64,000 bases of DNA from the NCBI RefSeq assembly GCF_007845645.1, contig NZ_VCQV01000002.1, positions 175,702 to 239,701 on the forward strand, in the 5' to 3' direction. Positions 28,157 to 53,715 of this stretch are shown here, piece by piece; positions within the stretch are counted from its first letter, which is position 1; each line of letters opens with the position of its first letter. A program made the position numbers and the translations under genes. The notes beneath the pieces were generated by a model. That model searched no databases, was not told the DNA's origin, and saw nothing but the letters and a program-made list of their open reading frames with translations. Source of the stretch: Leekyejoonella antrihumi. GTDB lineage: Bacteria > Actinomycetota > Actinomycetes > Actinomycetales > Dermatophilaceae.

Positions 28157-29409
28157 TGCTCACCGTCCCCGCCTACCAGGAGCGGCTGCTCGAGGCAGTC
28201 GCTCCGCTGACACCTGTCGCGGTGAGCGTCCTGGACGCCGGGCAGCTGCTGGGCCTGGTCACGACGGACGAGGTGCGCGCCGTCGCGATGCTTCCGGGTT
28301 TCACCAACTCCGCCATGGACGGGTATGCCGTGCGCGCCGCCGACGTCTCTGACGCGCCGGTGACGCTGCCGGTCAGCGGTGACATCGCGGCCGGTGACAC
28401 CCGCCGGCTCCGGCTCGAGCCCGGGACCTGTTGGCGGATCATGACCGGTGCGCCGTTGCCCGACGGTGCCGACTCCGTGGTGCAGGTCGAGCTGACCGAT
28501 GGCGGCACGACGGACGTGCGCATCGATGCACGCGTCGAGTCCGGTGCATCCGTGCGGTATCCGGGTGAGGACGTGCAACCGGGGCAGGTGGTCCTTGCGG
28601 CCGGCACCCAGCTCGCCGCACAGCACGTGCCGGTGCTGCTGTCCGCCGGTGTGCAGTCCGTGCGGGTGCGGCCACGGCCACGGGTGGCCGTCGTCAGCAC
28701 CGGCGACGAGCTGCGACCGGCAGGCTCCGAGCTCGAGCACGGTCAGGTCACCGACTCCAACGGGCCGATGCTCGCCGCGCTCGCCGTGCAGGCCGGGTTC
28801 GACGTCGTGGCCGTGCAGCACGTCGGTGACTCCGGTCCCTCGACCCGCGCCATGCTGCACGGGCTCGCGGATGCCGCCGACGCGATCATCACGTCCGGTG
28901 GGGTGAGCGCCGGCGCGTTCGAGCCACTGCGCCTGGCGTTCGAGGACGACCAGTCGTTGGAGTTCGTCAAGGTCGCCATGCAGCCGGGCAAGCCGCAGGC
29001 GTTCGGGTCTCTGGGCGGCACACCGGTCTTCGGGCTGCCAGGCAACCCTGTGAGCTCGTTCGTGTCGTTCCTGGTCTTCGTTGCTCCGGCCCTGCGCAAG
29101 ATGGCGGGACGGCCCGTCGATGCGCGCACGGTGCGCTGCGAGGTCGCCAGGGGATGGCAGCCCGCGGCGCCGGGGCGCACTCAGGTGGCGCGCATCCGCA
29201 TGCGTCCGGACGGTCGCATCGAGCAGGCGGGTGGTCCAGGTTCGCACCTGATGGGCGGGTTGGCGACCGCGGAGGGCCTGGCGTTCGTGCCGGCCGACCT
29301 GAGGGTCGTGCGCGAGGGCGAGGTGCTGGAGGTCATCGAGTTTCATCCCGACGAGGGCCCCCGGTCGCAAGCTCTCGTCGATACTTCGCGGGGGCCTCGA
29401 AATGCCTGA
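28156..29409 (+). CDS. moeA: MoeA-family protein (molybdenum insertion / Glp gephyrin-like)
   Basis: Molybdopterin molybdenumtransferase fold of 417 residues. GFTNSAMDGYAVRAADV (about 48-64), the ASVRYPGEDVQPGQ domain, VVSTGDELRPAGSELEHGQVTDSNGPML, SGGVSAGAFEPL and PGNPVSSFVSFLVF are all present. The GTG start shares one base with the galU stop. In Corynebacterium the MoeA homologue at this position (Glp) pairs with the membrane protein GlpR in cell division. Here a GlpR/SepX-like gene follows three genes later, so this protein may have that role as well as, or instead of, cofactor synthesis. Confidence 0.9.
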   Translation: MLTVPAYQERLLEAVAPLTPVAVSVLDAGQLLGLVTTDEVRAVAMLPGFTNSAMDGYAVRAADVSDAPVTLPVSGDIAAGDTRRLRLEPGTCWRIMTGAPLPDGADSVVQVELTDGGTTDVRIDARVESGASVRYPGEDVQPGQVVLAAGTQLAAQHVPVLLSAGVQSVRVRPRPRVAVVSTGDELRPAGSELEHGQVTDSNGPMLAALAVQAGFDVVAVQHVGDSGPSTRAMLHGLADAADAIITSGGVSAGAFEPLRLAFEDDQSLEFVKVAMQPGKPQAFGSLGGTPVFGLPGNPVSSFVSFLVFVAPALRKMAGRPVDARTVRCEVARGWQPAAPGRTQVARIRMRPDGRIEQAGGPGSHLMGGLATAEGLAFVPADLRVVREGEVLEVIEFHPDEGPRSQALVDTSRGPRNA

Positions 29410-48678: not shown

Positions 48679-50580
48679 ATGAAGGTTCTGTCCGCTGTCG
48701 CCTGGCCATACACCAACGGTCCGCGCCATATCGGCCACGTCGCCGGTTTTGGTGTGCCGTCCGACGTCTTCAGTCGTTACATGCGGATGGCGGGCCACGA
48801 CGTGCTGATGGTCAGCGGCACCGACGAGCACGGCACCCCGATCCTGGTCCTTGCCGAGCAGGAGGGCCTGAGCGTCCAGGAGGTCGTCGACAAGTACAAC
48901 GCCGTCATCGCGCAGGACCTGACCGATCTCGGCCTGTCCTACGACCTGTTCACCCGCACCACGACCCGCAATCACTACACGGTCGTGCAGGAGATGTTCC
49001 GCACGATCCACGCGAACGGCTACCTGGTCGAGCGGACCGCCCTCGCGGCAATCAGCCCGTCGACCGGTCGCACTCTGCCGGACCGCTACCTGGAGGGCAC
49101 CTGCCCGATCTGCGGGTTTGGCGAGGCGCGCGGTGACCAGTGCGACAACTGCGGAAACCAGCTGGACCCGAGCGACCTGATCGATCCGCGCAGCAAGATC
49201 AACGGGGAGATCCCGAAGTTCGTCGAGAGCACGCATTTCTTCCTCGACCTGCCGGCGCTCGCGGGCGAGCTGCAGCGCTGGCTGGATGAGGTCGACGGCA
49301 CCGGACTGTGGCGCCCGCACGTCATCAACTTCGCCAAGAACCTCGCCAAGGACATGCACCCGCGAGCGATGACTCGCGACATCGACTGGGGCATCCCGAT
49401 CCCGGTGGACGGCTGGGAGTCCAAGCGCTTCTACGTCTGGTTCGACGCGGTCATCGGCTACCTGTCGGCGGCGATCGAGTGGGCGCGCCGCACCGGCGAC
49501 CCGGAGCGGTGGCGCGACTGGTGGAATACGCCCCAGGAAGTTCTCCGCTCCGCAGGCTCCGCTCCGATACTTCCCGGGGACCCCGAGGAGACGCCCGAGG
49601 TAGCCAGGTCGTACTACTTCCAGGGCAAGGACAACATCACCTTCCACGCCCAGATCTGGCCTGCCGAGCTGCTCGCCTACGCCGGCCGCGGCGACAAGGG
49701 CGGTCAGCCCGGCCCGTATGGCGTGCTGAACCTGCCGACCGAGGTCGTCGCCTCGGAGTTCATGACCATGGAGGGCAAGCAGTTCTCGACCTCCCGCGGC
49801 CACGTGATCTACGTGCAGGACATGGTTGCCCGCTACGGCCCGGACGCCGTGCGCTACTTCATCAGCGCCGCCGGTCCCGAGAACCAGGACAGCGACTTCA
49901 CCTGGGCCGAGTTCGTGCAGCGCAACAACTCCGAACTCGTCGCGGGCTGGGGCAACCTGGTCAACCGCACGGCGTCGATGATCGCCGGCCGGTTCGGTCA
50001 GATCCCGCAGCCGGCGCAGCTCGAGCCGATCGACGAGGCGCTGCTGGCCCAGGTGCACGGCGCCTTCGCGACCGTAGGCGCGCTGATCGAGCGGCACCGG
50101 CAGAAGGCGGCGCTCGCCGAGGTGATGCGGGTGGTGCGCGAGGCCAACAAGTACGTCTCGGACACCGAACCGTTCAAGATGAAGGCGGACGACCAGCGCC
50201 AGCGGCTGGCGACGGTGCTGCATACGCTGGTCCAGGCCGTCAGTGACCTCAACCGGATGATGGCGCCGTTCCTGCCGCACAGCGCCAACAAGATCGCGGC
50301 GGCCCTCGGCGCCGAGGGGCAGTTCATGCCGATGCCAAGGCTGGAGCGGGTGCGCGACCTCGACGACGACTCGCGGTCCTACCCGATCATCACGGGGGAG
50401 TATTCCAAGACGCCCGCCTGGGGGCCCGTGGATGTGATCATCGGCACACCGATCGCCAAGCCGACACCGGTCTTCACCAAGCTCGACCCGTCGGTGGTCG
50501 ACGAGGAGCGTGCACGGCTAAACCCCACGAAGTCCTCGCTTCGCGGGGACTCCGAGCAGGACAGCACGGTGGATCGGTGA
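48679..50580 (+). CDS. metG: Methionyl-tRNA synthetase, with an unusual insertion
   Basis: Class I synthetase of 633 residues. The N-terminus [20 protein letters not shown] carries the HIGH motif. A zinc knuckle ([18 protein letters not shown], about 142-159) follows, then NRTxS-type anticodon region residues, and the KMSKS-equivalent loop is GKQFSTSRG (about 367). Between WWNTP and [11 protein letters not shown] (about residues 290-311), where relatives have a few residues, there is an extra segment of about 20 residues ([20 protein letters not shown] and onwards) encoded by a palindromic element. A second element encodes part of the C-terminal tail. TAGGAT at 48665, 8 nt before the ATG, indicates a leaderless mRNA. 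Confidence 0.93.
49531..49579. repeat. Palindromic element, copy B (inside metG)
   Basis: A 49-nt element with arms CCCCAGGAAGT and ACTTCCCGGGG (one mismatch), in frame within metG. It encodes the extra segment between the catalytic-fold elements and is related by its ends to the copies at 26437, 50523 and 53604. Confidence 0.65.
50523..50548. repeat. Palindromic element, copy C (3' end of metG)
   Basis: The shortest copy, 26 nt, with arms CCCCACGAAG and CTTCGCGGGG (single A/C mismatch) and a 6-nt centre. It is read as PTKSSLRGD in the MetG tail, just before the tatD start. Confidence 0.7.
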
Positions 50581-53592: not shown

Positions 53593-53715
53593 ATGAGTTC
53601 TCACCCCGCGAAGTCCTCACTCGTACCTCGTTCGGTACTTCGCAGGGGCGCCGGAGCCTCCGACCCCGGACTTTGGAGTGCGCGGTATCTGCTGCTGTGC
53701 GAGAGTCTCATATGA
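53593..53715 (+). CDS. Possible 40-residue leader peptide upstream of ispE
   Basis: An ATG at 53593 lies 6 nt after TAGGGT (53581-53586), the leaderless-start arrangement seen for many genes here. The frame (MSSHPAKSSLVPRSVLRRGA and onwards) ends in TGA, overlapping the ispE ATG by 4 nt (ATGA at 53712-53715). It spans palindromic element copy D. It may be a coupled leader that lets ribosomes reach ispE, or a chance frame. Confidence 0.4.
   Translation: MSSHPAKSSLVPRSVLRRGAGASDPGLWSARYLLLCESLI
53604..53648. repeat. Palindromic element, copy D (ispE leader)
   Basis: A 45-nt element with arms CCCCGCGAAGT and ACTTCGCAGGGG plus an inner GTACC/GGTAC stem. It shares TCACCCC(A/G)CGAAGTCC with copy A at 26437. 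It lies 64 nt before the ispE start and could fold in the mRNA. Confidence 0.7.

Follow-up and report, generated by a model that had tools for sequence, protein, structure and literature searches.

A dispersed, mostly stop-adjacent palindromic element with a copy inside metG of Leekyejoonella antrihumi

MIRUs serve to type tuberculosis strains and are described as mycobacterial, and Supply et al. reportedly found in 1997 that they insert at 'DTGA' sites. In the literature they are described as interspersed and tandem repeats of 40-100 bp (PMC2734929) that are apparently mobile, lie at start codons and carry within them an ORF whose coupling to the gene that follows is at -4 nt (PMC12548453), with a range given as M. 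leprae and the M. tuberculosis complex only (PMC4213456) or as many mycobacteria (PMC12548453). Papers on other systems describe the Rickettsia palindromic elements (RPE) as palindromes of 105-146 bp in frame inside conserved genes, found in 19 reading frames in the original report (PMC2229807), and REP/BIME elements as many short palindromes outside genes (PMC2817692). The element family described here resembles MIRU most closely when judged by these descriptions, and appears to work like it, yet with a covarying hairpin and with placement behind any stop codon.

The window analyzed is a stretch of 64,000 nucleotides from Leekyejoonella antrihumi (contig NZ_VCQV01000002.1, positions 175,702 to 239,701), and coordinates in the window are given below. 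It contains metG (48679..50580, + strand), which is a genuine methionyl-tRNA synthetase gene (Pfam PF09334, tRNA-synt_1g, E 6.7e-131; alignment with 22 homologues) with the element inside it and, at its 3' end, what is probably another copy in shortened form. The internal copy, as matched by a covariance model, spans 49531..49586 (+), and its arms CCCCAGGAAGT (49531-49541) and ACTTCCCGGGG (49569-49579) pair at 10 of 11 positions. It is enclosed by two ACGCCC direct repeats, a putative target duplication, of which the left (49528..49533, +) shares its last three bases with the CCCC of the element and the right (49591..49596, +) lies 63 bp downstream. The repeats delimit an in-frame insert of 63 bp, or 21 codons, and the distance from WW to YYF is 29 residues in this MetG versus mostly 7 in relatives. 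An earlier note on this DNA had described about 20 extra MetG residues encoded by an in-frame palindromic mini-element of 49 nt (49531-49579). The residues and the arms are where it placed them and the insertion is borne out by the ACGCCC flanks and by the homologues, while the element itself is longer than proposed, at about 49531-49586. The note had also suggested aligning homologues and searching the genome with the element, and rather than close relatives that all share a diverged segment lacking other genomic copies, we found the opposite on both counts. None of the 109 other MetG regions that were extracted has the segment (80 come from named and 29 from unnamed loci, with some species present in both collections; Intrasporangium, Janibacter, Phycicoccus, and Nocardioides are among the named relatives), although loop length is somewhat variable among them. 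It appears as a gap in the alignment with the 22 homologues, and in several relatives (e.g. G026) residues 1-286 and 309 onward are matched on contiguous DNA. In an AlphaFold model of MetG (23 sequences; mean pLDDT 80.2), the insert-encoded residues ~284-304 fall in a stretch with pLDDT below 50 (285-307). Values below 50 are also given to residues 615-633, which form the C-terminal tail where the probable second copy lies, and to residues 360-376, which are unrelated to either copy.

The probable second copy (CCCCACGAAGTCCTCGCTTCGCGGGGACTCC; 50523..50553, +) has one mismatch to the 5' pattern of the family and lies in the variable C-terminal tail, shortly before the metG/tatD overlap. The window as a whole reached two such 5'-pattern matches in 2 of 100 shuffles, and this copy is absent from the list of covariance-model matches in the genome. 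Among named relatives, the MetG tail beyond the match is 0-12 residues long in 27 of 31 and 24-55 residues in 4 of 31 (reading as far as the stop codon covered 34 of the 80 named loci, 3 of which were dropped with the match running past a stop or the reading plainly off). The idea that the C-terminal tail is unique among all homologues was rejected, because the four relatives with 24-55-residue tails include near ones; that first impression came from alignment ends, which are match ends and not protein ends.

A DNA search of the same genome with the metG segment gave at least 60 matches, itself included (40 of 82 candidates scored), and about 50 other sites match at E <1e-5 with 78-90% identity. 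Alignment of 40 copies yielded the consensus CCCCACGAAGTTCTCCGCTCGCAAGCTCGCTCCGATACTTCGCGGGGACCCCGA and a covariance model (R1) of 54 positions, corresponding to an element of ~54 bp. Searching the genome with R1 gave at least 139 matches at E<=0.1 and at least 127 at E<=1e-4, with 150 of 3494 candidates scored, E-values that are rough, and the model's own 40 copies counted. The metG copy matches R1 with E 8.3e-11 and 68.8 bits, being itself one of the 40 copies from which the model was built, and in stem columns 6/45 both of its bases are switched, from C-G to G-C. The outer stem comprises 12 pairs, with 94.6% of cells paired, and changes on both sides occur in 7 of 14 stem pairs of the 40-copy alignment. 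Cells changed on both sides number 28, compared with 7.0 ± 2.0 in shuffles and with 0 of 500 shuffles as high; further pair types, one of five measures of covariation, do not exceed shuffles (9 versus 9.7). Taken alone, the metG hairpin is not beyond chance, with 85 arm placements in the window pairing at 10 or more of 11 positions across loops of 20-35 nt, and it folds with unremarkable energy (z +1.05; family consensus -1.81). The hairpin was therefore rejected as stand-alone evidence, and what proves the element real is the repeat family with its DNA and covariance-model matches in the same genome. An Rfam search returned a single sub-threshold match (E 0.71), and no paper recognizable as dealing with this family was among the titles listed by a literature search. 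Three copies (L173, L168, and L190; C51:97812, C74:164452, and C107:67077 of the host genome, G000) reach 96 bp through a second palindrome (about CCCGCTGGCTGAAGCCAGCGTGCCAGCGGGAGGTACCCCC) nested in the loop; C74:151035 has a shorter relative. At L042 (C55:76845) the element is followed by a partial inverted copy, GAGAACTTCGTGGGG.

Two more copies lie in the window. One is between ksgA and ispE (53604..53653, +; R1 match E 9.7e-5), the gene names being presumed from the Pfam matches RrnaAD and GHMP kinase. It is spanned by a mini-ORF of 40 codons (53593..53715, +) whose TGA stop (53713-53715) overlaps the ATGA start of ispE (53712). The other is a decayed copy at the moeA/moaC junction (29347..29400, +; R1 match E 3.5e-4; identified from sequence and ORFs, with Pfam MoeA and MoaC), which supplies the codons for the C-terminal end of MoeA and leaves a single base between itself and the moaC ATG (29402). 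The last MoeA residues (EGPRSQALVDTSRGPRNA) come from this decayed copy, which reaches the moaC start (29347-29409).

Placement directly behind a stop codon is the commonest site of the family. We read 136 of the 139 copies with their flanks (3 were not fetched) and merged them into 102 arrays, of which 23 are tandem, calling genes with a simple home-made codon score. The upstream stop codon starts 3-10 nt before the element in 50 of the 102 arrays, or 50 of the 64 with a scorable upstream gene. The other 14 have the stop 19-81 nt away, several with partial element sequence in between, and 38 of the 102 arrays have no scorable upstream co-oriented ORF. A stop at such a distance is found at 96 of 19784 random positions (0.5%, counting all positions and not intergenic ones only), versus 50 of 102 arrays, and the opposite-strand control gave this placement in 2 of 102. 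Element orientation follows the upstream gene. The stop types TGA/TAG/TAA number 37/8/5 at arrays versus 181/51/24 in the background, and since the two mixes match, the placement rule is 'a stop codon' and not one motif. In other genera, 36 of 40 scored arrays have an adjacent upstream stop, or 32 of 36 after removal of repeated junctions. The loci for this replicate were hand-picked from the best matches, and for 25 of 65 no upstream ORF reached the required score; L159 and L315 represent a single site, while L163/L233, L165/L296, L228/L304, and L280/L320/L324 look orthologous and were counted separately. In a relative, G128, copies lie behind a gene that we take from its translation to be rplR, in the ribosomal operon, and between what are presumably nuoG and nuoH.

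Many arrays sit between overlapping genes. A downstream start codon is abutted by 34 of the 102 arrays, and 31 of these 34 starts are ATGA or GTGA. An ATGA/GTGA overlap lies just left of the element in 28 arrays, 27 of which have one on both sides (6 of the 34 have no left overlap). A mini-ORF that begins there ends on the next overlap in 24 of the 28, at the next gene in 16 and at the next tandem unit in 8; of the remaining four, two are fused in frame, one of them (C35:54814) containing an assembly gap, and two end otherwise. The same holds for 16 of 19 arrays in other genera, where two of the misses are one site fetched twice and orthologous sites were counted separately. For single copies at overlaps, the spacings 53, 59, 62, 65, and 104 are all 2 mod 3 and account for 15 of 17 copies, the exceptions being two single-copy sites with spacings of 52 and 61. 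The binomial P of 4.5e-6 takes copies as independent and is too small, because 7 of the 17 share the spacing 65. Behind plain stops the spacing phases are 10/10/8, with no frame rule. The peptide of the mini-ORF differs between subfamilies and is thus not conserved as protein. A conserved encoded peptide was likewise rejected, as metG uses another frame than the glycosyltransferase copy described below and the mini-ORFs, and mini-ORF ends differ between subfamilies.

These features recall MIRU, which is also a short interspersed repeat, partly tandem with varying copy number, and whose internal ORF is stop-start coupled to the downstream gene. Compared with the DTGA sites attributed to MIRU, the adjacent starts here are ATGA or GTGA in all but three cases, and 8 of the 50 stop-adjacent arrays follow TAG and 5 follow TAA. 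Set beside the descriptions of MIRU are also the covarying palindrome, the copies behind plain TGA, TAG, and TAA codons, and those sometimes found in genes. We infer that the mini-ORF is translated. Insertion would duplicate a few bases including the stop codon, so that the upstream gene would keep its stop and the downstream gene its start. A bare hairpin behind the stop would make it hard for a ribosome that terminates there to start again on the following gene, and in a synthetic operon structure behind a stop codon reportedly hinders restart (PMC7518266). A ribosome finishing the upstream gene could restart at the left ATGA, translate the mini-ORF through the hairpin, terminate at the right ATGA, and restart there on the next gene; with the hairpin read through in this way, the element would avoid blocking restart. 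We consider it probable that the metG segment is a copy of a dispersed, mobile palindromic element of ~54 bp that is mostly stop-adjacent and preserves coupling at overlaps. The metG copy would be a rare in-gene insertion, and its tolerance would be due to a length divisible by three, the lack of an internal stop, and a site in a loop of variable length.

The preference for stop codons could also arise if insertion were random and copies survived only where harmless, without any targeting of stops. Sites behind stops are harmless and duplication of the ATGA would spare both genes, which gives this explanation an appreciable though minor probability. However, harmless intergenic sites farther off would then be expected to carry copies as well, whereas in 50 of the 64 scored arrays the stop is no more than 10 nt away, and the stop-adjacent arrays that use TAG or TAA also argue against it. 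Somewhat more doubtful is a link between insertion and translation termination itself, in which any stop site would be recognized via RNA or the terminating ribosome and not via a DNA motif, with the hairpin and mini-ORF hiding the element from translation of the operon.

Copies inside genes bear on a third explanation, a selfish, protein-coding palindromic element of the Rickettsia type that spreads mainly by in-frame insertion into genes. The metG copy fits it, being an in-frame palindrome in a conserved gene that other MetG regions lack, and so does a copy in a glycosyltransferase, which occupies a variable-length linker and has no counterpart peptide in the 17 relatives read. These two are the only ones of the 102 arrays to pass the in-gene test, though, and the strong placement behind stop codons and the length of ~54 bp, against 105-146 bp for RPE (PMC2229807), set the family apart from RPE in size and in spread over many genes. 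We therefore regard this explanation as improbable. The likeness to Rickettsia elements drawn by the earlier note holds for the metG copy, whereas the closest analogue of the family is MIRU, and the protein-coding repeat family that the note envisaged is not mainly coding.

Mobility is what we infer from flanks, from sites filled in one genome and empty in another, and from spread. The left and right flanks of the same single copy are more alike than flanks of different copies, beating 4999 of 5000 permutations. The duplications are short, imperfect, and variable in length, many copies are without them, and they are visible mostly at ATGA sites, where start-codon selection would keep them anyway. 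The family has the terminal inverted repeats of MITEs in its paired outer stem. MITEs also have a target duplication of fixed length, to which the shared flanks here, in excess of permuted pairs but varying in length, can be compared. All 7 G128 sites that were queried are empty in one or more sister genomes. The same junction is filled in G128 and empty in G026 at L230 and L236, and empty in G069 at L229; the bases duplicated there start at the stop codon and read, left/right of the element, TGACCA/TGATCA, TGATCA/TGAGCA, and an identical TGAGCACCA on either side. At L229 there are two tandem units in G128 versus one in G026. Presence and absence could in part reflect loss. At another G128 site (L237; C1:1963700-1965300), 22 identical bp (TACGGCATCCCCGACCGTATGA) flank the element inside a longer similar stretch, the longest duplication among the sites seen. 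At L228 (C1:472600-474200), the sequence right of the element starts ATGACCATCCCACACAGTTCTCCGCTC, and the N terminus of the downstream gene appears, from its sequence, to be made from a truncated element copy.

The spread of the element across the bacterial family is patchy. In the host's GTDB family, whose named MetG relatives include Intrasporangium and not mycobacteria, it is present in 66 of the 186 genomes, own genome included, and in 25 of the 53 genera (31 candidates scored per genome, with stricter filters), whereas MIRU is described as mycobacterial (PMC4213456, PMC12548453). A class-wide sample had the element in 13 of 394 genomes, 8 of the 13 lying outside the family with weaker matches (three of the 8 inspected). 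At L282 and L284, from two genomes of a different bacterial family (f38), a longer inverted repeat seen on both sides encloses the core. In three genomes of two genera (L280, L320, and L324, in G031, G228, and G227), the same junction is filled, after a gene whose product has AMEDRKKEGYF or KKQGYF as its last residues, which means that some insertions may be ancient and retained.

These observations also bear on whether the copies are non-mobile hairpins for ribosome or transcription termination, which arose and were kept behind stop codons. One study reports stable structure behind stops on average in 128 bacteria, and behind any stop type in E. coli (PMC7518266). Such ribosome termination structures (RTS) lie immediately behind stop codons (PMC7518266), in agreement with the placement here. 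In contrast, the element is a repeated sequence, near-alike at many unrelated junctions in many genera, with filled and empty orthologous sites between species, flanking duplications, and copies inside genes. Its 34 arrays that abut a start codon also differ from RTS, which the same study reports as depleted where genes overlap or lie close together (PMC7518266). We think it quite unlikely that non-mobile hairpins account for the family, though a termination role may be retained after insertion.

That the family is a REP/BIME element moved by the REP-associated Y1 tyrosine transposase is very improbable. The element shares with REP/BIME its small palindromes, high copy number, and extragenic sites behind genes, but the units of its tandem arrays all point the same way, as direct head-to-tail and not alternating repeats. 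The Y1/RAYT transposase domain (PF01797) was found in 0 of 42 family genomes (its own and 41 relatives), including the high-copy genomes G000, G004, G011, G026, and G033, while 5 of 14 control genomes were positive. A RAYT mobilizer was therefore rejected for the genomes examined. Finally, it is scarcely credible that the MetG segment is ordinary loop-length variation plus a chance palindrome, for although the MetG loop varies in relatives and equally good hairpins are common in the window, this is refuted by the ~50 close matches elsewhere in the genome.

With the metG segment read as one copy of a mobile, coupling-preserving element, an essential enzyme, MetG, contains an element-derived segment, as does MoeA at its end. 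The family would give material on how such elements move, on the effect of a hairpin behind a stop codon on restart, and on the tolerance of operons for insertions. If insertion is linked to termination, the element would be a mobile one whose target is the end of translation. A second MIRU-like family, of different make-up and spread over 25 genera of a different bacterial family, would mean that intercistronic elements which preserve coupling form a general class.
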